Shown here one piece after another: positions 22,659-33,711 of a DNA stretch of 64,000 nucleotides. Numbering within the stretch: the stretch's first letter is position 1; the number at the start of each line of letters is the position of its first letter. The position numbers were made by a program, and so were the translations under genes. This DNA is from Actinoplanes oblitus. Its GTDB lineage: Bacteria; Actinomycetota; Actinomycetes; Mycobacteriales; Micromonosporaceae. The stretch spans positions 6,153,501 to 6,217,500 of the forward strand of contig NZ_CP126980.1 in assembly GCF_030252345.1 (NCBI RefSeq), given 5' to 3'. The notes beneath the pieces were generated by a model. The model was not told the origin of the DNA. It worked only from the letters and a program-made list of their open reading frames with translations, and did not search any database.

Positions 22659-23573
22659 GTGCATCCGATCCCGAGCGAGCGGGCCCGCGCGCTGGTGACC
22701 GGCGCCTACGACACGCACGTGCACGTCGCGCCGGACGTGATGGAGCGGCGGATCGACGATGTGCGCCTGGCGCGCCGGTTCGCCGAGGTGGGGCTGGCCG
22801 GGTTCGTGCTCAAGTCGCACTACGTGCCGACCGCGGAGCGCGCCGAGGTGGTGCGCGGGGTGGTGCCCGGTGTCGAGGCGCTCGGCGCGCTCACCCTGAA
22901 CGGCTCGGTCGGCGGGCTCAACCCGGTGGCCGTGGAGATCGCCGGCCGGCAGGGTGCCCGGGTCGTCTGGCTGCCGACCGTCGACAGTGCCAACGAGCGG
23001 GCCGGCCGGGCCGCGATCCCACCCGGCGCGACCCCGCCGATGTGGGCGGCGCTGCAGGACGAGCTGACCGGGCGGGGCATCGCCTGTCCGCCGATCGAGG
23101 TGGTCGACGAGGCCGGGCGGATCGTGCCGGCGCTGCACGACGTGTTCGCGGTGCTGGCCGAGCACGACATGGTGCTGGCGACCGGGCACCTGAGCGGGCC
23201 GGAGATCGTGGCGGCGGTGGACGCCGCGGCGGCGGCCGGGGTGCGGCGGATCATCGTGACCCACCCCGAGTTCACCTCGCAGCGGCTGGACGTGGCGACC
23301 CAGCGGCACCTGGCCGGGCGCGGAGCGCTGCTGGAACGGTGCTTCACCACGGCGTACACGAAGAAGGTCTCCTGGGATGCGCTGGTCGCGCACATCCGGG
23401 CGGTGGGGCCGGAGCATTCGCTGCTCTCCAGCGATCTGGGGCAGCCGTTCAATCCGCCGGTCGAGGACGGGCTCGCGCTGCTCGCCGACCGGCTGCTCGG
23501 AGCCGGCTTCGGCGACGACGAGGTGCGCACCATGGCGGTCGTCAACAGCCGGCGTATCCTCGGGCGGCCGTGA
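22659..23573 (+). CDS. DUF6282-like metal-dependent hydrolase
   Basis: A 304-residue TIM-barrel-type protein. YDTHVHVAPDVMERR carries the HxH metal motif. LKSHYVPTAERAEVV, LATGHLSGPEIV, IVTHPEFTSQRLD and LSSDLGQP add the His and Asp ligands expected of an amidohydrolase-like site. This matches proteins named DUF6282. Substrate unknown. GTG 22659 has a GAAGG site about 7 bases upstream. Its 3' end overlaps the convergent response-regulator gene by 32 bp. Confidence 0.8.
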   Translation: MHPIPSERARALVTGAYDTHVHVAPDVMERRIDDVRLARRFAEVGLAGFVLKSHYVPTAERAEVVRGVVPGVEALGALTLNGSVGGLNPVAVEIAGRQGARVVWLPTVDSANERAGRAAIPPGATPPMWAALQDELTGRGIACPPIEVVDEAGRIVPALHDVFAVLAEHDMVLATGHLSGPEIVAAVDAAAAAGVRRIIVTHPEFTSQRLDVATQRHLAGRGALLERCFTTAYTKKVSWDALVAHIRAVGPEHSLLSSDLGQPFNPPVEDGLALLADRLLGAGFGDDEVRTMAVVNSRRILGRP

Positions 23574-24201
23574 TGCCGGCGTCCCGCGCCAGCAGCGCGG
23601 CCTGCACCCGGTCGGCGACGGCCAGCCGGGTGAACAGCTGCGAGGCCCGGTTGCGCACGGTCTTCTCGCGCAGGCCGAGACGCCGGGCGATCTCCGCGTA
23701 ACTGTCCCCCGCCGCCAGCCCGGCCAGCAGGTCGAGTTCGCGTGCCGAGAGTGCGTCGAAGGGTGCGGGCAGCGGCGCCGGCCGGGGACGGACACCGCTG
23801 AGCAGCGACCCGCCGACGTTCGGGCCCAGCACGAACCCGCCGGAGGCGACCGCCCGCAGCGCGTCCACGACGGCGCCGGGGTCGGTGTCCTTGAGCACGT
23901 ATCCGTGCGCGCCGACCCGCAGCGCCCGGGCCACCAGGTCCTCGTCGTCGCTCATGGTCAGCATGAGCACCCGGGTGACCGGGCTGACCCGGGTGATCCG
24001 GTGCACCGCCTCGATGCCGTCGCCGTCCGGCAGGGCGATGTCCAGGGCGACCACGTCGACCTCTCCCCCGGTGACGCCGCGCAGCGCGCCGGCGACGGTG
24101 GCCGCCTCGAGCACCTCGGTCACCCAGCTCTCGGCCTCCAGGATGGCCCGCAGCCCGCGCCGCATGATCGGATGATCGTCGACCACCAGCACCCTGGTCA
24201 T
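23542..24201 (-). CDS. NarL/LuxR-type response regulator
   Basis: A 219-residue two-component regulator. The receiver domain has the acidic pocket Asp8-Asp9 and phospho-acceptor Asp54 (VVALDIALPDG). The C-terminal LuxR helix-turn-helix is LSARELDLLAGLAAGDSYAEIARRLGLREKTVRN. It is partner of the kinase encoded directly upstream, with a 4-bp ATGA overlap. Target genes are unknown. The 3' end overlaps the convergent DUF6282-like gene. Confidence 0.95.
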   Translation of the reverse strand: MTRVLVVDDHPIMRRGLRAILEAESWVTEVLEAATVAGALRGVTGGEVDVVALDIALPDGDGIEAVHRITRVSPVTRVLMLTMSDDEDLVARALRVGAHGYVLKDTDPGAVVDALRAVASGGFVLGPNVGGSLLSGVRPRPAPLPAPFDALSARELDLLAGLAAGDSYAEIARRLGLREKTVRNRASQLFTRLAVADRVQAALLARDAGITAARGYAGC

Positions 24202-26117
24202 GACACCGGCAGCCGGACGTGGATCGCGGTGCCGCCCGCGGGACCGGCGCCGATGTCGAAGTGGCCGCCCAGCTCGGCGGCCCGTTCGCGCATCGAGGCG
24301 AGACCGACGCCGTGGTTCCGGCCGCCGTTGATGCCGATGCCGTCGTCGACGATCTCCATGGTCAGGCACCTGTCGCGGCGTACCGCGACGGCGCAGGTGC
24401 GGGCCCACGCGTGCCGGGCCGCGTTGGTGACCGCCTCGGCGAAGATCCGGTACGCGGCCACCTCGACCGCCGGCGGCAGGCCGTCCAGCGAGCCCACCAC
24501 GGTCAGCCGGGCCGTCAGCCCGCCCTCGGTCAGCTTGCGGCAACCGGTACGCAGCGCGTTCTCCAGCCCGTCGTCGAGCGCCGGCGGCCGCAGCTGGTCG
24601 ACCAGGCGCCGGACCTCGACGACGCAGTCCCGCAGGTCGTCGGCGAGCTCGGTGGCGGTGCTCGCGGTGTGCACCCGCATCGACATCCCCATCAGCGCCG
24701 GACCGAGCCCGTCGTGCAGGTCCCGGCGCAGGCGCTGGCGTTCCTCCTCGCGGGTGAGCACCAGCCGCTCGCGGGCGTCGCGCAGGTCCCGGATCATCCG
24801 GGTGACGGCGACGGCGACGGCCGCCTGCATCGCCACGTCGCCCAGCAGCCGGCGTTCCGGTGCGGTGAACGGGCTGCCCGGACTGCGGATCGCGACGAGC
24901 AGCCGGCCGATCCGCTCGCCGTGCGCGATCATCTCGAACGACTCGGTGGCCGTCGTCGCCCGCCCGTGCTCGGCGAGCAGCCGGGGGCCGTCGCCGGTGG
25001 TGGACTCCAGTGCCACGTAGGGCACCCGCAGCGACCGGGCCACCGTCGCGGTCAGCGACGGCAGCACCGCGCTGGGGTCGACCGCCCGGCCGAGCAGGTC
25101 GCCCAGCTCGGCGATCACCCGGTACGGATCGTCCCGGTCACCGAAGAGCAGCCGTTCCACGGCGCGCTGGACCCACCGGCGCAGTGGTTCGAACGTCATC
25201 GCGATCAGGCCGGTGACCACCAGCGAGGCCACCGACGTGCGGTTGCCCAGTACCGCCCGGCCCAGCATGCCGACCAGCACGACGTAGCCGGCGATCACGA
25301 CGAGGGTCATGATCGACCACACGATCGCACGGTTCAGCACCTGGTCCAGGCCGTAGAGCCGGTGCCGGACCATGGCCACCGTCATCCCGAGCGGCACGGA
25401 GAGCGCCACCACGATCGGCGCGCCCGGCACCGCCAGGGTGTTCAGGACCAGCCCGATGGCCAGCAGCACCGCCGCGGCGAGCAGGTAGGCCAGCTGCCGC
25501 CGGGCGTCGCCGCTGGTCCGGCGCCAGCGCAGCCAGAGCGCGACCAGCATGCCGGCCATGCCGGCGGCCACCGCGACCATGCCGGCCGCCGCGGCGTGCA
25601 CCGCCGGCGACGCCGGCCCGGCGAAGGTGAAGAACCTGGTCAGCAGGTCGCGGGGGTGCTCCAGCGCGGCCACCGCGAGGCCGAGCGTGCCGAGCAGGGT
25701 GCCGCCGGCGAGGACGCCGGCGACCAGCCGCCAGTACCGGCCGGGCAGCGTGCCGTCCGGGAAGACCAGCAGGGCCAGTGCGATCAGCCCGAACGGCGGC
25801 CACCAGCACCACTGGCCGGCCCAGGCCGGGATCACGAAGTCCGACCAGCTCAACGCCAGCAGGTCGGCACAGGACACCAGCCCGGCGGCGCGCATCAGCC
25901 GGCCCACCGGGTTGCCCGGCTCGGCGGCCAGCACGAGCTCGCCCATCACCAGGTAGGCCACCGCCACCGGGGCGACGAAGAGGGTGGTCGTCACGGACAT
26001 CGCGCCGGCCCCGGCCAGCTGGCCCACTGCCACGGCTACGACGACGGCGACAGCGGTGATCAGGAGCATCAGATGCTCGCGCACCCACCGAGCGATGGTC
26101 AACGCCCTACTCCCCAC
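24198..26117 (-). CDS. Membrane sensor histidine kinase (HisKA_3 type)
   Basis: A 639-residue kinase. About nine hydrophobic segments span residues 15-300, followed by a GAF-like region (about 335-440), a HisKA_3 dimerisation domain with phospho-accepting His468 in RRDLHDGLGPALMG, and a HATPase domain with DDGIGINGGRNHGVGLASMRERA. It autophosphorylates and passes phosphate to the adjacent NarL-type regulator. The many-helix sensor suggests a membrane-linked or small hydrophobic signal. GTG 26117 is the assumed start, without a strong ribosome-binding site. Confidence 0.9.
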   Translation of the reverse strand: MGSRALTIARWVREHLMLLITAVAVVVAVAVGQLAGAGAMSVTTTLFVAPVAVAYLVMGELVLAAEPGNPVGRLMRAAGLVSCADLLALSWSDFVIPAWAGQWCWWPPFGLIALALLVFPDGTLPGRYWRLVAGVLAGGTLLGTLGLAVAALEHPRDLLTRFFTFAGPASPAVHAAAAGMVAVAAGMAGMLVALWLRWRRTSGDARRQLAYLLAAAVLLAIGLVLNTLAVPGAPIVVALSVPLGMTVAMVRHRLYGLDQVLNRAIVWSIMTLVVIAGYVVLVGMLGRAVLGNRTSVASLVVTGLIAMTFEPLRRWVQRAVERLLFGDRDDPYRVIAELGDLLGRAVDPSAVLPSLTATVARSLRVPYVALESTTGDGPRLLAEHGRATTATESFEMIAHGERIGRLLVAIRSPGSPFTAPERRLLGDVAMQAAVAVAVTRMIRDLRDARERLVLTREEERQRLRRDLHDGLGPALMGMSMRVHTASTATELADDLRDCVVEVRRLVDQLRPPALDDGLENALRTGCRKLTEGGLTARLTVVGSLDGLPPAVEVAAYRIFAEAVTNAARHAWARTCAVAVRRDRCLTMEIVDDGIGINGGRNHGVGLASMRERAAELGGHFDIGAGPAGGTAIHVRLPVS

Positions 26118-26247: not shown

Positions 26248-26709
26248 TCAGGCGTCCGCCGCGCCGTACCGGCCCGCGGTGAACAGCAGCGAGGGCTCCG
26301 GGCGCATCCCGTGCCGGAGCACCTCGCCGATCAGGATGACGTGGTCGCCGGCCGGGATCAGCCGGTGGGTCCGGCAGACCAGGTAGGCGGCCACGTCCGC
26401 CAGCAGCGGCAGGCCCTCCGGACCGGGCCGGCTGGCGGTTCCCCGGAAGCGGTCCCCCGGCCCGGCGAACCGCTCCGCCAGCTCCCGCTGCCCAGCGGCC
26501 AGCACGTTCACCGCGAACCGCGGCGTGGTCGCGAAGGCCGCGTGGCAGCGCGAGTCCCGCCGCAGGCACCACAGCACCAGCGGCGGGACCAGCGACACCG
26601 AGGTGAACGAGTTGATGGTCAGCCCGACCGCCAGTCCGTCGTGGACGGTGGTCACCACCGCGACACCGGTGGGGAACTTGCCGAGCGCGTCGCGCAGATT
26701 CCGGTGCAT
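26248..26709 (-). CDS. Flavin reductase domain protein
   Basis: A 153-residue flavin reductase of the HpaC/FRP-like split-barrel family. It starts MHRNLRDALGKFPTGVAVVTT (the family FPTGVxVVT signature), then LTINSFTSVSLVPPLVLWCL for flavin binding and FAVNVLAAGQRELAERFAG. Such proteins supply reduced FMN/FAD to a partner monooxygenase, or bind flavin as stand-alone oxidoreductases. No partner oxygenase is adjacent. It follows the TPR gene after one base and is the last gene of the candidate RiPP block, so a role in peptide oxidation is conceivable but unproven. Confidence 0.85.
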   Translation of the reverse strand: MHRNLRDALGKFPTGVAVVTTVHDGLAVGLTINSFTSVSLVPPLVLWCLRRDSRCHAAFATTPRFAVNVLAAGQRELAERFAGPGDRFRGTASRPGPEGLPLLADVAAYLVCRTHRLIPAGDHVILIGEVLRHGMRPEPSLLFTAGRYGAADA

Positions 26710-26710
26710 G

Positions 26711-28624
26711 TCATCGCCCTGCCAGTTCGGCGCGGGCCAGCCGCACGTCGGGGTCGTCGGGCGCCAGTGCGGCCGCCACGTCCAGGTCGGCCAAGGCCCG
26801 CTCCCACCGGCCGGCGCGCCGGTACAGGTACGCCCGGTTGTAACGCAGCGCCGGATCGTCCGGGGCCAGGCCGACGGCATGGTCCAGATCGGCCTCGGCC
26901 ACCTCGGTACGGCCCAGTTCGAGGGCCGCCGCGGCGCGGCCGGAGCGGGCGGTGACCAGGTCCGGGTCCGCCTCGACGGCATGGTCGAAGGAGGCCAGGG
27001 CGGCGCGGTACTGCCCGCGTTCGGCCCGGACGCTGCCCGCGATGACGTGCAGGTGCGGGTTGCCCGGTTCGCGGGCGAGCCCGGCGCGCACGTCGCACAT
27101 CGCGGCGTCCAGGTCGCCGCGCTCCAGGCGGAGGGCGGCCCGGTTGACGTACGCGTCGACGAAGTCCGGATCGAGCTCCAGCACATAGTCGAAGTCGGCC
27201 AGCGCGCCGTCGGTGTCGCCGCGGGCGGCACGCAGGTCGCCCCGGTTGTAGTACGCCTCGTGGAACGCCGGGGACAGCGCCATCACCGTCTCGTACTCGG
27301 CGAGCGCCTCGTCGTCGCGGTCCAGCCGGCGCAGCAGGTTGGCCCGGTCGAAGTGGTACTCCGGCCAGTTCGGATCGGCCTCGATCACCGCGGTGTAGTC
27401 GGCCAGCGCGTCCTCGATCCGGCCGAGCGCGACGTTGACCTGCCCGCGGTTGTAGCGCAGGACCGAGCGGTGCAGCCGGTGCTCGCCCGGCTCGAAGAAC
27501 GCGTCCATCCGGGCGATGCAGTCGTCCACCAGGCGCAGCGCCTCCGGCAGGTTCCCGTCGTGCACCTCGACCAGTGCCAGGCCGTTGCGCATGAACACGC
27601 TCTGGAAGACCCGCTCGCGCGGGTTGTCCAGCACCGAGGCGATCGCCACGGCCTGGTTGACCCAGCCGCGGGCCAGCGCCTGATCGCGGTGGTCCGGCTC
27701 GTAGTGCCGGGTGTAGAGCATGCCGGTCGCGTAGGCGGCGCCCATGTGCACGGCCGGCACCACGCTGTTCGTCCGGGCCTCCTGATACAGCGCCTCGGCC
27801 TCGGCCGGGCGCTCCAGCACCGCGAGGGCGGTGGTCAGCCGCGAGGTGATGAAGAGGTAGCGCAGCTCCGGCTGGTCCCAGCCGACCAGCCGCCGGGCGC
27901 GCTCGGCCAGGTCGATCGTCGCGTCGTAGAAGCCCATGACGCTGCAGTGGTCCACCGCGAACCGCAGGGCCGCGACGGCGTGCACGGCCGGGTCGGTGCC
28001 GCGCTCCCGGTGGTACGGGATGGCGCCGAGCCGCAGCGACACCTCGCCGGCGCGTTCCAGGTCGTCGGCCCGCCGGTCGTGCAGGCGCCGCCGCTCGTCC
28101 GGGTCCAGGGCCAGGTAGGCGGCGAGCGTCGCCGGATCCTCGGCGAGGCAGTCGCCCGCCACGTACGCCTTGGCGTCGCCGGCACCGGACGCGGCGCCGG
28201 TGCGGACGACCAGCGCGAGCGCCGACGGGTCGAGCCGGCGCCGCATCACGGTCAGCAACTCGACGTCGGTCGGGTCGGCCTGATCGGCGTTCTCGATCAC
28301 CAGGGTGCGCGGGCCGATCCGGCCGGTCAGGTCGCGCAGGAACTCGGTGAGGCCGTGCGCCAGCCGCCGGGTCCGCAGCCGCGAGTAGTACCTGGTGCGT
28401 TCGGCCGGCACCGCCAGCCCGGTCAGCGTCTCCGGCGCGGCGGGCACCAGCCCGTGCAGTTCCGGCGCCGCCGACAGGATCTCGATGGCGTGCGCGGCGA
28501 CCAGGTCCGGCGGCGCCTCGGGGACGATTGCCCGCAATATCGTGCCGGCCATGGTGTACGGCCCGCGCAGCCGGCGGTGCGCGTTCACCGGTGGGGTGAG
28601 CAGCTTCATCTTCTTGCTCCGCAT
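26711..28624 (-). CDS. TPR protein with degenerate STAND-like N-terminus
   Basis: A 637-residue protein. Residues 1-170 resemble the NTPase part of MalT/LuxR-like regulators: HRRLRGPYTMAGTILRAI, then a Walker-B-like TLVIENADQADPTDVELL. No P-loop (GxxxxGK) is visible, so it may not hydrolyse ATP. From about 250 to the end are tetratricopeptide repeats (YNRGQVNVALGRIEDALADY and about seven similar units), typical protein- or peptide-binding scaffolds. No DNA-binding domain at the C-terminus. ATG 28624 shares a base with the stop of the M50 protease gene (TGATG), so the two products are probably made together and may act on the same peptide. Confidence 0.8.
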   Translation of the reverse strand: MRSKKMKLLTPPVNAHRRLRGPYTMAGTILRAIVPEAPPDLVAAHAIEILSAAPELHGLVPAAPETLTGLAVPAERTRYYSRLRTRRLAHGLTEFLRDLTGRIGPRTLVIENADQADPTDVELLTVMRRRLDPSALALVVRTGAASGAGDAKAYVAGDCLAEDPATLAAYLALDPDERRRLHDRRADDLERAGEVSLRLGAIPYHRERGTDPAVHAVAALRFAVDHCSVMGFYDATIDLAERARRLVGWDQPELRYLFITSRLTTALAVLERPAEAEALYQEARTNSVVPAVHMGAAYATGMLYTRHYEPDHRDQALARGWVNQAVAIASVLDNPRERVFQSVFMRNGLALVEVHDGNLPEALRLVDDCIARMDAFFEPGEHRLHRSVLRYNRGQVNVALGRIEDALADYTAVIEADPNWPEYHFDRANLLRRLDRDDEALAEYETVMALSPAFHEAYYNRGDLRAARGDTDGALADFDYVLELDPDFVDAYVNRAALRLERGDLDAAMCDVRAGLAREPGNPHLHVIAGSVRAERGQYRAALASFDHAVEADPDLVTARSGRAAAALELGRTEVAEADLDHAVGLAPDDPALRYNRAYLYRRAGRWERALADLDVAAALAPDDPDVRLARAELAGR

Positions 28625-29823
28625 CAGTCGAGAACGTGGGCCGGCGCCGGTGCCCGGTCGCGCCGCGCCCGCCACAGCAGGTAGCCGAGGGCGGCGAACT
28701 GAAGCCCGTTGACCAGCAGGAAGGCCACCGAGTCGGTGACACCGGCGAGCCCCGAGCCGTCCGAGAGGTGGCCCAGCACGACACTGAACATGTGATAGGT
28801 CGCCGGGATCCCGGCCACCAGCAGGGTGCCGATCGAGAACGCGTAGCCGAGCACCAGCAGCCACGAGTACCAGCGGGCGACGGCCCGGTCGGTCGGGTGC
28901 CAGGTGCTCTCGTCCAGCACGTGGGCGTGCCGGCCGAGCAGGCGGTTCACCCGGTTGGCGACGGTGCGCCGGGCGGTCTTCTGCAGGTCGACGCAGCCGA
29001 ACACGGTGACGATCACGTGGTACAGGTCGGTCTGCAGGTAGAAGTAGAACTGCCAGACGAACCGCAGCAGGGTGGCGAACGCCATCGCCAGGCAGATGCC
29101 GCCGGCCAGCGGTTCGGTGCCGTCCGGACGGCGCAGCAGCCCGGCCACCAGGGTCAGCACCGCCACCGCCACCAGGTCGGCCAGCATGCCGGCCAGCATC
29201 GGCAGATACCGTTTGGCGCGCGGCACCGCCACCAGGCCGTCCAGCGACGTCTCGACGACCACGAAGTAGAGCCGCCGGCCGATCCCCATCCGGGACCGCA
29301 GGCCGAGGCGGCGGCCGGCGAGGGCGTGGAACGACTCGTGCAGCAGGATGAACGGGAACTGGCCGACGAAGACCACCATCACCACGACGGTCACGTACGG
29401 CGAGAAGAACAGGTTGCTGTAGTGCGGGGTCAGGCCGGGCTCGCGGATCATCGCGAGCACCGCGGCGAGCAGCAGGCCGGCGTACCCGATCATCGCGACC
29501 GGCGAGAACAGCGCGCGCCCCAGGCGCTGCCACCGGACGGTCCCGGCGGCCGCGACCGGTTCACCGGGCGCCGCGACGAACTCCATCTCGGTCATCGCCT
29601 CGAGGAACTCGACGATGTCCACCGGCTGCCCGAAAGCCCGCTCGTACCACTGGGCGGCGCGGCTCGGCGGCGTGCCGCGGATCAGTTCGCGCAGCAGCGC
29701 CGCGCCGTCGGCCGGCAGCACGCAGTACGCGTCGATGTCGGCCCGGCCGACAGTCACGTCGTCGCCCTCGTCGAGCATCGTGAGCTGGTGCAGCCGCACC
29801 GGCCGATCCAAGTCTTCGACCAT
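28624..29823 (-). CDS. PqqD-like/M50-type membrane metalloprotease
   Basis: A 399-residue protein. Residues 1-84 look like a PqqD-type winged-helix peptide-recognition element (RPVRLHQLTMLDEGDDVTVGR, then LPADGAALLRELIRG). After that come about seven membrane segments, with an HExxH zinc site H162-E163-S-F-H166 at the end of one, followed by a further conserved Asp in LAGMLADLVAVAVL. This is the layout of M50-type proteases in RiPP loci that bind a leader peptide and cleave or export it. ATG 29823 has GGGAG 8 bases upstream. A strong hairpin separates it from the 29-codon ORF upstream. Confidence 0.85.
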   Translation of the reverse strand: MVEDLDRPVRLHQLTMLDEGDDVTVGRADIDAYCVLPADGAALLRELIRGTPPSRAAQWYERAFGQPVDIVEFLEAMTEMEFVAAPGEPVAAAGTVRWQRLGRALFSPVAMIGYAGLLLAAVLAMIREPGLTPHYSNLFFSPYVTVVVMVVFVGQFPFILLHESFHALAGRRLGLRSRMGIGRRLYFVVVETSLDGLVAVPRAKRYLPMLAGMLADLVAVAVLTLVAGLLRRPDGTEPLAGGICLAMAFATLLRFVWQFYFYLQTDLYHVIVTVFGCVDLQKTARRTVANRVNRLLGRHAHVLDESTWHPTDRAVARWYSWLLVLGYAFSIGTLLVAGIPATYHMFSVVLGHLSDGSGLAGVTDSVAFLLVNGLQFAALGYLLWRARRDRAPAPAHVLD

Positions 29824-29849
29824 GATTGATCTCCCGTGCCAGGGTTGGT

Positions 29850-29871
29850 GGGGCTCCCTCGCGGGAGCCCC
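29850..29871 (-). terminator. Hairpin between peptide gene and protease gene
   Basis: A perfect 9-bp stem, GGGGCTCCC and GGGAGCCCC, has a 4-base loop and sits 8 bases past the 29-codon ORF stop and before the protease ribosome-binding site. It would cut transcription partially or stabilise the upstream mRNA end, giving more peptide than enzyme. Confidence 0.8.
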
Positions 29872-29879
29872 GTGTCTCA

Positions 29880-29969
29880 TCAGGCGACGCCACAGCTCGG
29901 GCTGTACGGACACAGCGCCGCACTCGTCAGGCGCACGGCACCGGCCTTACGCACGTTGATCTTCTTCAT
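29880..29969 (-). CDS. Candidate RiPP precursor peptide, 29 aa
   Basis: A 29-codon ORF with a strong GGGGGGAGG site 7 bases before ATG 29969. The product begins MKKINVRKAGAVRLTSAA, a basic leader-like half, and ends LCPYSPSCGVA, a core-like half with two Cys flanking PYSPS. The same strand continues into a PqqD-like/M50 protease gene, the usual partner of a short modified peptide. A hairpin follows the stop. No radical SAM, YcaO or LanM-like gene is adjacent, so the modification (disulfide, thioether, other) is open. Too short for coding statistics; support comes from the ribosome-binding site, context and leader/core layout. Confidence 0.75.
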   Translation of the reverse strand: MKKINVRKAGAVRLTSAALCPYSPSCGVA

Positions 29970-30074
29970 GGCTTTTCCTCCCCCCGGTATCTCTGAGGTC
30001 TTGCGCAGAGCATGTCCGGCGGGGATGTCCCGGGCACAGGGACAGCCATCCCGGCCGGGCGGGAAGAACGCCCG

Positions 30075-30821
30075 TCAGCAGAGGAGGTCGTGCAGCGCCG
30101 CGACGCAGTTCGCCACGTCCGCCACGTGCGCGCTGTGACCGAACGAGCGGGGCCGGGGAATCGCGACGTCGAGCACCCGGCGGACCTGTCCCGGCCGGGC
30201 GCTGAGCACCACGACACGATCGGCCAGCAGCACCGCCTCGGAGATCGAGTGCGTGACGAAGACCGTGGTGGCCGGCGCTGACATGTGCATCGCCTGCAGC
30301 TGCCCGGCCAGTTCCTCGCGGGTCAGCGCGTCCAGGGCGGAGAACGGCTCGTCCATCAGCAGCACCCGGGGCCGCTGGATCAGCGCCCGGCAGAGCGCGA
30401 CCCGCTGCTGCATGCCGCCGGAGAGCTCGTGGGGATGCCGCCGGTGGAACCCGGCCAGGCCGACCGCGTCGAGCAGTTCCGCCGCCCGCTCCCGGTACTC
30501 GGCCCGGGGCAGGCGCCGGATCTCCACCGGCAGCATGACGTTGCCCAGCACGGTCCGCCAGGGCAGCAGCGCCGGCAGCTGATGCATCAGCACCACGTCG
30601 CGGCGGGGGCGGTGGACCGGCGTACCGCCGATGGTCACGCGGCCACCGGTTGGCGCGAGCAGCCCGGCCATCAGGCGCAACAGCGTCGACTTGCCGCAGC
30701 CGGAGCGCCCGATGACGGCGACGAATTGGTTCTCGCCGATCGTCAGGTCGATGTCGCGCAGCGCCGCCACCTCGCCGGCACGGGTGGTGAACGTCCGGGA
30801 CACCCGCTCCAGCACGATCAT
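30075..30821 (-). CDS. ABC transporter ATPase, NitT/TauT type
   Basis: A 248-residue ABC ATPase. Walker A is GRSGCGKST, the signature is LSGGMQQRVALCRAL, and Walker B is VLLMDEPFSALD, followed by FVTHSISEAVLLADRVVVL. The family is that of nitrate/sulfonate/taurine/thiamine-precursor importers. The ATG overlaps the permease stop by 4 bp. It ends 105 bp before the 29-codon ORF on the same strand. Confidence 0.95.
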   Translation of the reverse strand: MIVLERVSRTFTTRAGEVAALRDIDLTIGENQFVAVIGRSGCGKSTLLRLMAGLLAPTGGRVTIGGTPVHRPRRDVVLMHQLPALLPWRTVLGNVMLPVEIRRLPRAEYRERAAELLDAVGLAGFHRRHPHELSGGMQQRVALCRALIQRPRVLLMDEPFSALDALTREELAGQLQAMHMSAPATTVFVTHSISEAVLLADRVVVLSARPGQVRRVLDVAIPRPRSFGHSAHVADVANCVAALHDLLC

Positions 30822-31564
30822 CCGGAGATCGCCCGCGCCCACGGCACCAGCCAGCGTTCCAGCACCACCACCAGGTAGAACAGAGCGGTGCTGAGCAGCG
30901 CCAGCAGGGTGATGGCGGCGAACGCGAGCGGCGTGTCCAGTGACATCCCGGACAGCACGATCACCGCGCCCAGCCCGCCGCTCGGGTTGTTGATCTCGGC
31001 GACCACCGCGCCGATCACGGCCAGGGTGACGGCGACCTTCAGGCCGGTGAACACCTGCGGGAGCGCCCACGGCAGGCGCACCTTGACGTACGTCTGCCAG
31101 CGCGACGCGGACAGCGACCGGCTCAGCTCGCCCAGCTCGGCCGGGGTCGAGGTGAGCCCGGCCATCGTCGCCACCACGATCGGGAAGACGCAGATCAGCA
31201 CCACCAGCACGATCTTCGGCCGGGCGCCGAAGCCCAGCCACACCACGAGCAGCGGGGCGAGCGCCACCTTCGGTATCGAGTTCAGCGCGACCAGCACCGG
31301 CAGAGCGGCCCGCTCCAGCGCCCGCCACGCGGTGAGCAGCACCGCGACCAGCAGGCCGAGCGCCACCGCGATGCCGAACCCGGCAAGGGTCTCGGACACC
31401 GTGGCACCGGTCTCGCGGATCAGGTAGCCGGGCTGGGCACGGAAGGCCGCCACGATGTCCGGTGGCGCGGGCAGGATGATCTGCCGGATGCCGAACACCG
31501 CGGTGGCCGCCCACCAGAGCACCACCGTGCCGACCACCCCGGCGATCGGCAGGGCGGCTCTCAC
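30818..31564 (-). CDS. ABC transporter permease, NitT/TauT type
   Basis: A 248-residue BPD-type permease with about six membrane helices. The EAA-like loop region is TPAELGELSRSLSASRWQTYVKVRLPWALPQVFTGLKVA, the segment that contacts the ATPase. GTG 31564 overlaps the methyltransferase stop by 4 bp (GTGA) and leads into a hydrophobic first helix. The substrate cannot be told from the sequence. Confidence 0.95.
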   Translation of the reverse strand: MRAALPIAGVVGTVVLWWAATAVFGIRQIILPAPPDIVAAFRAQPGYLIRETGATVSETLAGFGIAVALGLLVAVLLTAWRALERAALPVLVALNSIPKVALAPLLVVWLGFGARPKIVLVVLICVFPIVVATMAGLTSTPAELGELSRSLSASRWQTYVKVRLPWALPQVFTGLKVAVTLAVIGAVVAEINNPSGGLGAVIVLSGMSLDTPLAFAAITLLALLSTALFYLVVVLERWLVPWARAISG

Positions 31565-32349
31565 GGGTGTCGCCCGACGGTGGAGTAGGTGAGGATTCCC
31601 CGCACCACCAGCCGGGGGTCCTCGGCGAGCCGGCACAGCCGGTCGAGGTCGCGCTCGGTGAGCCCGGCGCCGAGCAGACCGGCCCGCTGCTGCTCGACGT
31701 TGACCGCGATGAGCCGCGCCCCCGCGGTGCCGCCCGGCCAGGACCGGGCCCGGACCTCGGTGGTCACGTCGACGAGCCCGGCCGCCAGCATCGCGGCGTG
31801 CAGCCGGCAGGCCCACGCCGGATCGTTGCCGTTGCCCGGCAGCAGCCGTCCCACCAGGATGTCGTAGTAGCGTTCGACCAGCTCGGCGGCGGCCTCGTCG
31901 GGCGCGGCCAGCACCACCCCGCGGATCGCCGAGGCCCATTCCTCGACGAGCAGGATCCCTTCCGGTACGAGGGACGCCGCCAGCCGTTCCAGCACCTCCA
32001 CCCGGCTGGGCAGGTGAGACAGCACCAGCCGCGCGTGGATCAGGTCCCACGGCGGTGCCGGGACCGGTTCGGTGATCAGATCGTGGCGCAGCACGTCATA
32101 GCCCGCCCCGGCCCGCAGGTGCCGCGGCTTGAGGTCGGTGGCCAGCACCGGCCCGGCCCGCTCGGCCAGCCAGGCCGCGATGCTGCCACCGCCGGCGCCG
32201 ACCTCCAGGCAGCGCCGCCCGGTGAGGTCGCCGAGGGCCGCGAGCCGCTCGACGGTGAACGGGTCGAGGATCTCGGCGAGCAGCCGGTGCCGCAGCGCCG
32301 CGATCGGATCGTCGTTGTCGAACGAGTACGTCCCCCGCCGCGTCGCCAT
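31561..32349 (-). CDS. SAM-dependent methyltransferase inside ABC operon
   Basis: A 262-residue class I methyltransferase: CLEVGAGGGSIAAWLAE is motif I binding S-adenosylmethionine, VLATDLKP is motif II, and WDLIHARLVLSHLPSRVEVLERLAASLVPEGILLVEEW covers the later motifs. It starts with RRGTYSFDNDDPIAALRHRLL, similar to natural-product methyltransferases. It is placed between the substrate-binding lipoprotein gene (4 bp away) and the permease gene (4-bp overlap), an unusual position for an import operon. The methyl acceptor is unknown; the imported compound or the peptide encoded downstream are candidates. Confidence 0.85.
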   Translation of the reverse strand: MATRRGTYSFDNDDPIAALRHRLLAEILDPFTVERLAALGDLTGRRCLEVGAGGGSIAAWLAERAGPVLATDLKPRHLRAGAGYDVLRHDLITEPVPAPPWDLIHARLVLSHLPSRVEVLERLAASLVPEGILLVEEWASAIRGVVLAAPDEAAAELVERYYDILVGRLLPGNGNDPAWACRLHAAMLAAGLVDVTTEVRARSWPGGTAGARLIAVNVEQQRAGLLGAGLTERDLDRLCRLAEDPRLVVRGILTYSTVGRHP

Positions 32350-32353
32350 CGGC

Positions 32354-33352
32354 TCAGCCCGCCGGCGCCAGCGAGAAGTCGACCACCGCGTCCGGGGTCA
32401 GGCTGCCCGGCGGGACCAGCCCGTTCCTCTCCAGCGTGGCGATCGCCGTGCCGACCCGCTGCTTGTCGATCACCCCGGACGTCTTCACGTACGGCGTCAT
32501 CAGGGTGATCTCCCCGACCGCTGCGGTCACGTCCGCCGCCGGCTGCGCCTTCTTCATGATCTCGGCGGCTTCCTGCGGGTGCTCGATCGTGTACGCCAGC
32601 CCCTTGAGCGCCGCGTCGCGGAACCGCCGGGCCAGGTCCGGATTGCCCTGCGTGATGCTCACCGACGCGATCAGCCCGTTGCCGTACAGCTCCGGCAGGT
32701 AGGTGCTGTACGGCATGACCACGGTCTTCTTGCCACCGGCCGCCTTCTCCAGACCCTTCGCCCCGATCAGGAAGGTGCTCAGCGCGTCCACCCGCCCACC
32801 GGCCAGCAGCGCCGGCAACTGCGGCGGCGGCGCGTTGACCCACTGCACCTCGCTCGCGTCGATCCCGGCGAGTTTCGCGTAGCCCGGGAAGAGCAACTGG
32901 TTCACCGAACCGGTCGCGGCGCCCAGCTTGTGCCCCTCCAGGTCGGTGGGTTTGGCGACGGCGGAACCCGCCAGCGAAATGATCGAGACCAGCGTCTGCT
33001 GGTGGATCGCGGCTATCGCGCGGACGTCCTGGTACTGGCCTTTTCCGGCCAGGATCCAGGCCCCGGTCAGATCGAGATTGGCGAATTGCGCTTTCCCGGC
33101 CGCGAGTACCTTCAGGTTCTCCCCGGTCGCCGCGCCGAGCTGAATGGTGACGTCGATCCCGGCGTCCCGGAAATACCCCTTCTCCTGGGCGACCCAGGCG
33201 AAGGCGTCACGGCCCACCGCGCCGAAGGCGGTGAGATAGGTGACCCTGTCAGCTGCCGGCCTGCCGCCGTCCGGCTGCTCGTCGTCACCACACGCGGTGA
33301 GCGACAACGTCATGGCCATGGTGGCGGCGAGCGTGGCAAAGATACGCCTCAT
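32354..33352 (-). CDS. ABC transporter substrate-binding lipoprotein
   Basis: A 332-residue lipoprotein. The signal peptide ends with the lipobox LTAC, so the Cys is lipidated and the protein is anchored outside the membrane. The mature part is an SsuA/ThiY-like periplasmic-binding fold: RVTYLTAFGAVGRDAFAWVAQEKGYFRDAGIDVTI, then KPTDLEGHKLG and VQWVNAPPPQLPALLAGGRVDAL. ATG 33352 has GGGGAAG 5 bases upstream. First gene of the operon with methyltransferase, permease and ATPase. Confidence 0.95.
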   Translation of the reverse strand: MRRIFATLAATMAMTLSLTACGDDEQPDGGRPAADRVTYLTAFGAVGRDAFAWVAQEKGYFRDAGIDVTIQLGAATGENLKVLAAGKAQFANLDLTGAWILAGKGQYQDVRAIAAIHQQTLVSIISLAGSAVAKPTDLEGHKLGAATGSVNQLLFPGYAKLAGIDASEVQWVNAPPPQLPALLAGGRVDALSTFLIGAKGLEKAAGGKKTVVMPYSTYLPELYGNGLIASVSITQGNPDLARRFRDAALKGLAYTIEHPQEAAEIMKKAQPAADVTAAVGEITLMTPYVKTSGVIDKQRVGTAIATLERNGLVPPGSLTPDAVVDFSLAPAG

Positions 33353-33711
33353 CGGACTTCCCCCGCATCGGTGACACATTGATCAACAACGATACGTTTC
33401 CGTGCGGAAGCCTAACCGATCAGTTCAGATCCGCGGTCGCCCACGACCCACCCGATTTCCGTACGCCCCGGCAGGCGCGCCGTTCTTTGCACGGCGTTCC
33501 GCGCAGCGATCGCCGCGACAGTCGTCACGGCGATCGGCGGATGCGGCCGGCCGCGCCCCGGGCCACCCAGGGTCAGCCGCATGGCGAGCAGCGACCTGCG
33601 GAGTGCGGACCCCGCTCAGCACCTCGATCCGGGCGCCGCCCAGCGACGGCGGTTGTGCCGCCGCTCAGCGACCGCGATCGTGCCGCCGCTGAGCGGCCGG
33701 AGTCATCGCGC
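33353..33711. other. Intergenic region, no gene seen
   Basis: The 359 bp contain a TTGATCAA palindrome at 33379-33386, in a good position for an operator of the ABC operon, and GC-rich sequence with GCGATCG-type and CGATCGTG motifs beyond. No coding-like frame or RNA gene was recognised. Confidence 0.5.

Follow-up and report, generated by a model that had tools for sequence, protein, structure and literature searches.

Organization of the locus

The single-contig, 9.8-Mb genome of the soil bacterium Actinoplanes oblitus carries, in the 64,000-nucleotide stretch analysed here (NZ_CP126980.1, positions 6,153,501 to 6,217,500; hereafter the window), a minus-strand unit in which a 29-codon open reading frame (ORF) is followed, in this order, by the genes of a membrane protease, a tetratricopeptide repeat (TPR) protein and a flavin reductase. 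The 29-residue peptide belongs to a widespread and apparently undescribed actinobacterial family, and the peptide–protease–TPR set appears to represent a novel type of natural peptide product or signal, with a protease that is predicted to carry a recognition element (RRE) of ribosomally synthesized and post-translationally modified peptides (RiPPs). An earlier sequence-only reading had called the small ORF with its good ribosome-binding site, the TGATG overlap of protease stop and TPR gene start, and the flavin reductase gene beginning 1 bp past the TPR stop; all three are present where it placed them. The features of the unit, in window coordinates, are:

29977..29985, minus strand: ribosome-binding site GGGGGGAGG of the peptide gene, 7 nt from the ATG
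29880..29969, minus strand: precursor peptide gene, 29 amino acids (aa), MKKINVRKAGAVRLTSAALCPYSPSCGVA; leader motif in homologous loci and none in controls, purifying selection on the leader
29916..29969, minus strand: leader, residues 1-18; probable boundary, from conservation (positional entropy, codon changes)
29883..29915, minus strand: putative core LCPYSPSCGVA, with residues Tyr22 and Cys26 at family positions (family comparison)
29850..29871, minus strand: 9-bp GC-rich hairpin between the precursor and protease genes, z -2.71
28624..29823, minus strand: membrane metalloprotease of site-2 protease type with a predicted fused RRE, 399 aa; AlphaFold2 model with predicted local distance difference test score (pLDDT) 87, fold matches
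29566..29805, minus strand: predicted RRE domain of the protease, residues 7-86; fold matches
28795..29400, minus strand: site-2 protease core, residues 142-343, HExxH at 162-166; D195 or D266 as candidate third zinc ligands
26711..28624, minus strand: TPR protein, 637 aa, with an apparently degenerate AAA/STAND-like N-terminus and then a TPR superhelix of ~425 residues; Pfam TPR and weak AAA_16, model pLDDT 94
26248..26709, minus strand: flavin reductase, accessory, 153 aa; PF01613, E 4.1e-40

A conserved leader peptide under purifying selection

Homologous loci came from two sets. The first comprises 32 neighbourhoods of the window's family, from 33 places with a full-length protease of at least 42% identity in 300 genomes, and the second the best 80 of 117 relatives, from Streptomyces, Kitasatospora, Lentzea, Streptosporangium, Actinokineospora and others. 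Six loci are common to both (L040/L078, L041/L096, L051/L138, L052/L141, L053/L144 and L054/L152), so that the 112 loci amount to 106 distinct ones, and loci from one genus are not independent of each other. Genes were called in this analysis, and most neighbour genes at the other loci carry no annotation.

Of the 112 loci, 111 (105 of 106 distinct; the exception is L153) have the leader motif MKKIxVRKxGxVRLTxAA ahead of the protease gene, and a profile of 30 first-set precursors found the precursor in 74 of the 80 second-set loci. The sequence-only reading had named homologous loci without a conserved small ORF as the outcome that would speak against it, and the ORF is instead kept almost throughout. 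In 274 kb upstream of the 112 protease homologues the motif matched 151 times in sense and never in antisense on the same DNA, and 1.43 Mb of downstream control DNA gave no match on either strand. The motif was composed after the family had been seen, and the invariance of R7 and T15 is by construction; the zero controls are the independent evidence. Also independent, as they lie outside the motif, are A18 (110 of 116 distinct precursors) and Tyr22 (103 of 116). It is this tyrosine, often together with Cys26 (59 of 116), that the family retains, and not the Cys-x5-Cys core which the sequence-only reading had inferred.

Codon changes were counted in 148 locus pairs picked by protease DNA identity (78-99.9%) with the peptide ignored, using one precursor per locus; 16 pairs are of unequal length, and the pairs overlap and so are not independent. 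The first 14 leader codons differ by 318 synonymous and 102 non-synonymous changes and residues 16-18 by 113 and 15, as against 114 and 177 in the core, which is the contrast that would be expected of a recognised leader joined to a freer core. This count supersedes an earlier tally of 61 synonymous and 0 non-synonymous differences, in which groups had been preselected for identical peptides and the zero was thus by choice. Between the window and its nearest relative the peptide gene differs at 2 nt, both synonymous. The absence of control matches and the selection on the leader exclude a chance ORF: the conserved leader-core peptide ORF is real and under selection.

No convincing paralogous precursor was found elsewhere in the window genome (next best E 0.07), and NCBIfam holds no precursor family for it, with one chance-level match only. 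Among 396 genomes scanned across the phylum, at least 4 have a match (4 candidates scored per genome).

Variable cores and tandem precursors

The peptide is near-fixed through residue 18 and variable in sequence and length beyond it, with tails of 10-25 residues, and one of 35, after RLT. Cys and Tyr each occur in 110 of 111 distinct cores, the exception being a degenerate copy in L103; the first Tyr stands seven residues past RLT in 96 of the 111, and the spacings Y-x3-C and C-x2-Y occur in 50 and 27. A core near-identical to that of the window, LCPYNPKCGVLPA, occurs in Yinghuangia (L077). Nine loci carry 2 to 10 tandem precursors (L152 repeats L054, and the degenerate L103 copy is among these), and copies within one locus carry different tails. 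The arrays of L059 and L054, with 10 and 6 precursors, have in addition a divergent one at the far end, MKRITVRRL.PVRLPATA.AIYDGDS.GWPGCDPVFHEPPA.

The protease is a predicted RRE–site-2 protease fusion

In line with the sequence-only reading of a PqqD-like N-terminus on an HExxH membrane protease, residues 7-86 are predicted to adopt an RRE (PqqD-type) fold, a domain that marks RiPP clusters, and the protease carries the motif HESFH. The best fold matches of the N-terminal domain are lasso-peptide RREs solved with their leader, TbiB1 (5v1u) and 6jx3, at 16-19% identity. The HExxH lies in a membrane helix, with D195 or D266 as the candidate third Asp ligand of a site-2 protease (M50), and the membrane part was matched at modest Z. 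Taken together, the model describes a predicted fusion of an RRE domain to a site-2 protease, that is, an RRE-fused intramembrane peptidase. No relative with a solved structure was found by sequence. The closest relative among the matches listed is from Actinoplanes ianthinogenes (91%), and relatives of whatever closeness number at least 1,238 among public proteins (7,994 candidates scored).

The TPR protein is the invariant partner

The TPR gene is present in all 112 loci. Its N-terminus seems to be a degenerate AAA/STAND-like nucleotide-binding fold whose P-loop has been lost, which bears out the earlier call of a P-loop-less STAND-like part. Among the top-ranked structural matches are TPR proteins in complex with peptides or with fragments of proteins, e.g., LGN. 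At least 655 public proteins are relatives of the N-terminus (7,993 candidates scored). A known defence system was rejected, PADLOC having given a weak TPR match only (18.6 bits).

A TPR-protein search of the same 300 genomes returned 52 places, of which 33 adjoin the protease gene and 19 lack it. A peptide was found at 16 of these 19 TPR-only loci, 15 of them with a 27-aa peptide such as MKKMTIRRTSTLRLLSGARRLWIEWCW directly upstream and L168 with MKKLQVHKVGPMRLTGAAIGCYTTPSCSCDENGF; of the rest, two gave no peptide and one lies at a contig start. In another family, a peptide and TPR pair occurs in 1 of 394 genomes (L205). Across this protease-less branch (L168, L169, L171-L184 and L205), a peptide of 27-34 aa, mostly …SGARRLWIEWCW, stands directly before the TPR gene; tails are mostly …RRLWIEWCW, and in a by-eye reading the 27-aa peptide aligns gap-free with the window-type precursor over L-[YW]-x3-C.

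Conversely, a TPR-less branch has a peptide MKKLxVRKLExVKTSAxA… upstream of 8 of 28 distinct remote proteases, the 8 being at 26-30% identity with no TPR match nearby; the other 20 gave no match to this pattern upstream. Its members (L071, L074, L186-L190 and L192) carry Cys-containing peptides before remote RRE/M50-type proteases, and three 12-aa matches of the pattern (L191, L196 and L202) are unrelated and were dropped. Both branches are new in this analysis. A further peptide–protease–TPR unit, flanked by transposase genes, lies on a linear Streptomyces plasmid (L206, NZ_CP109482.1 267815-282804), and its precursor has neither Cys nor Tyr.

Accessory enzymes, regulators and neighbouring genes

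Of the 112 loci, 58 (53 of the 106 distinct ones) have a flavin reductase gene next to that of the TPR protein, a share that excludes it as a core component. An Old Yellow Enzyme replaces it in six second-set loci (Sphaerisporangium, Streptosporangium, Planobispora and Sphaerimonospora; one member tested, PF00724), and a nitroreductase occurs additionally in two distinct loci (four entries; one tested, PF00881). We found no modifying enzyme shared across loci, the flavin enzymes differing by locus, and no gene cluster other than the protease, TPR protein, Streptomyces antibiotic regulatory protein (SARP) and flavin reductase in more than 12 of the 112. Radical SAM enzyme, YcaO and lanthionine synthetase are likewise missing from the 15 neighbouring ORFs scanned (17.3-39.3 kb, a part of the window's ORFs), as the sequence-only reading had it.

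In seven loci with cores ending …LYCTDCC (L061 and L063-L068), a flavoprotein of one cluster is encoded at six, the seventh being unresolved by the gene caller (one tested, PF02441). This flavoprotein is a divergent EpiD-like one; the loci also carry a LuxR-type regulator, and may decarboxylate a Cys. We take the link to resemble EpiD-type decarboxylation of a C-terminal Cys.

In the window, a histidine kinase and a LuxR-type response regulator lie directly downstream of the flavin reductase (23542-26117), likewise in the nearest relative. On the other side (30075-33379) is an ABC transporter operon of sulfonate/nitrate type, in which a methyltransferase gene sits between those of the binding protein and the permease. 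We rejected this upstream transporter and methyltransferase as parts of the system: among 40 neighbourhoods, methyltransferase and binding protein occur only in the window and its nearest relative L038, and the ATPase matches at other loci, plus one permease match (L055), lie at varying distances. In seven Streptomycetaceae loci (L081, L086, L087, L120, L129, L149 and L155) an XRE-like regulator, an HExxH protein without a Pfam match and a membrane protein, all named by eye, recur wholly or partly beside the unit.

SARP-type regulators are concentrated near the unit, at 0.16 per 2-kb bin from -2 to 0 kb and 0.23 from +4 to +6 kb, against 0.10 at -4 to -2 kb, 0.04 over the unit and 0.00-0.05 further out; both members tested have BTAD and Trans_reg_C. 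This enrichment would suit an intracellular signalling pair, in which the peptide would act as a pheromone and the TPR protein as its receptor, on the pattern of RRNPPA systems, with the adjacent SARP providing the output. Peptide and TPR gene are the most constant unit, a protease-less branch has both (16 of 19 TPR-only loci and L205), and the peptide-bound structures among the TPR matches point the same way. We nevertheless regard this pair as unlikely. The RRE is a RiPP hallmark that, to our knowledge, is found in no RRNPPA system, no helix-turn-helix (HTH) domain occurs among the 25 of 37 families listed for 27 TPR members, the peptides show by eye no hydrophobic signal sequence, and the LGN match weighs little since TPR folds match one another generically.

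A hairpin behind the precursor gene

Behind the precursor, within 60 nt of the stop, stems of at least 11 bp occur in 67 of 105 distinct stretches, against a mean of 0.8 in dinucleotide shuffles. In the second set, 47 of the 79 precursor genes and 20 of the 78 TPR genes have such a stem after their stop, compared with 0 of the 80 protease genes. No known RNA element in Rfam matched at the hairpin. In 15 protease-less loci examined, a hairpin of 10-13 bp separates the peptide and TPR genes (no shuffle control). The hairpin is compatible with partial termination behind a highly expressed precursor gene, and hairpins of this kind occur in other RiPP operons.

These hairpins, and tails rich in Cys and Tyr, are also what a regulatory leader ORF would show, where the hairpin and the downstream genes would be controlled through ribosome stalling at Tyr, Trp or Cys codons. 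Such an attenuator is very improbable: conservation is highest in the N-terminal amino acids, which it could dispense with, arrays with as many as ten copies do not fit it, the protease bears a leader-binding type of domain, and the hairpin also suits a RiPP operon. Just as improbable is a conserved microprotein, a subunit or regulator of a protease–TPR complex and not a precursor, for which no known product and the protease-less peptide and TPR pairs might speak, against which stand a fixed leader with a tail of varying sequence and length and several copies per locus with differing tails.

Proposed mechanism

The locus has the makeup of a RiPP locus, with a short precursor, a conserved leader, a variable core and adjoining enzyme genes. 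A RiPP-type peptide system is the best explanation because a leader-core precursor, the RRE of the protease, tandem variants and a nearby regulator coincide; the peptide natural product or signal proposed by the sequence-only reading is supported. We conclude that the locus probably encodes a RiPP or peptide signal that is guided by the RRE, released at the membrane and obligately partnered by the pseudo-STAND TPR protein. Computed support comes from the selected, conserved peptide, the RRE fold, the site-2 protease signature, the invariant TPR gene, the tandem precursors and the hairpin.

From these data we infer translation, leader binding, the cut site, the TPR role, tailoring and any secretion as follows. 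A small ribosomal peptide would be made from the leader-core precursor. Its basic leader (residues 1 to ~18) would dock onto the RRE domain of the membrane metalloprotease, and the site-2 protease part would cut near the leader/core boundary, releasing a core of ~11 residues with Tyr and Cys. The putatively peptide-binding TPR superhelix, as obligate partner, may hold, deliver or sense the precursor or the mature peptide, and locus-specific flavin enzymes may tailor the Cys-containing core or keep it reduced. With no class-defining enzyme among the scanned neighbours of the window unit, optional flavin enzymes and a peptide/TPR branch, the product may or may not be much modified, or may be a signal sensed by the TPR protein.

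A further-reaching idea, possible rather than probable, is that a widespread, so far undescribed actinobacterial system is built on two genes, those of the leader peptide and the pseudo-STAND TPR protein, and has acquired the RRE–site-2 protease and exchangeable flavin enzymes in addition, with the TPR protein itself recognising the leader and serving as maturation partner or receptor for an aromatic-x3-Cys peptide. The central question is the role of the P-loop-less STAND/TPR protein toward the leader peptide. If our proposal is true, an undescribed peptide system is present in many actinomycetes, its precursors being easily missed because they have only ~24-57 codons, and Streptomyces, Kitasatospora, Lentzea and Actinoplanes offer a short, testable route to new peptides or signals.

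Comparison with known systems

No description of a peptide–protease–TPR system was found in open-licence PubMed Central main texts, and the consulted parts of the main texts of two RRE papers (PMC12710340, PMC7470986) mention neither M50 nor TPR. Daptide clusters are described as having an RRE-dependent intramembrane peptidase, MpaP, near short conserved-leader ORFs, with a mean of 2.3 per cluster (PMC10036551). The window locus shares with them a predicted RRE-peptidase fusion adjoining such ORFs. However, neither the daptide leader motif ELExMEAP nor the invariant C-terminal Thr of daptides is present here, the window peptide ending in CGVA and the listed precursors sharing no C-terminal Thr. 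Nor do the oxidative decarboxylase, aminotransferase and methyltransferase of daptides recur as constant partners, the window methyltransferase being shared, among 40 neighbourhoods, only with the nearest relative. The invariant partner here is a TPR protein.

The epipeptide protease EpeP is also named YydH. EpeP is a membrane M50 protease thought to cleave and export the epipeptide (PMC10885120). EpeP and the pearlin proteases TglG and TmoG are membrane M50 proteases that release RiPP products, and the window protease is predicted to be of the same type; in a comparison of neighbour genes, their radical SAM and lanthipeptide-dehydratase-like (PEARL) enzymes are not among the neighbours scanned here. 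A lasso cyclase is likewise absent from these neighbours. The FxSxx-COOH RiPP system pairs a precursor gene with an NB-ARC/TPR protein and a radical SAM enzyme; the precursor and STAND/TPR association recurs here, whereas its radical SAM enzyme is not among the scanned neighbours.

In RRNPPA systems, Eep-type M50 proteases process some signals. The RRNPPA quorum systems of Firmicutes place a small peptide gene beside a TPR gene (PMC9765709), as is the case here. In contrast to them, the window locus, with no HTH or phosphatase part seen, combines a predicted RRE and an apparently degenerate STAND-like N-terminus in an actinobacterial host.
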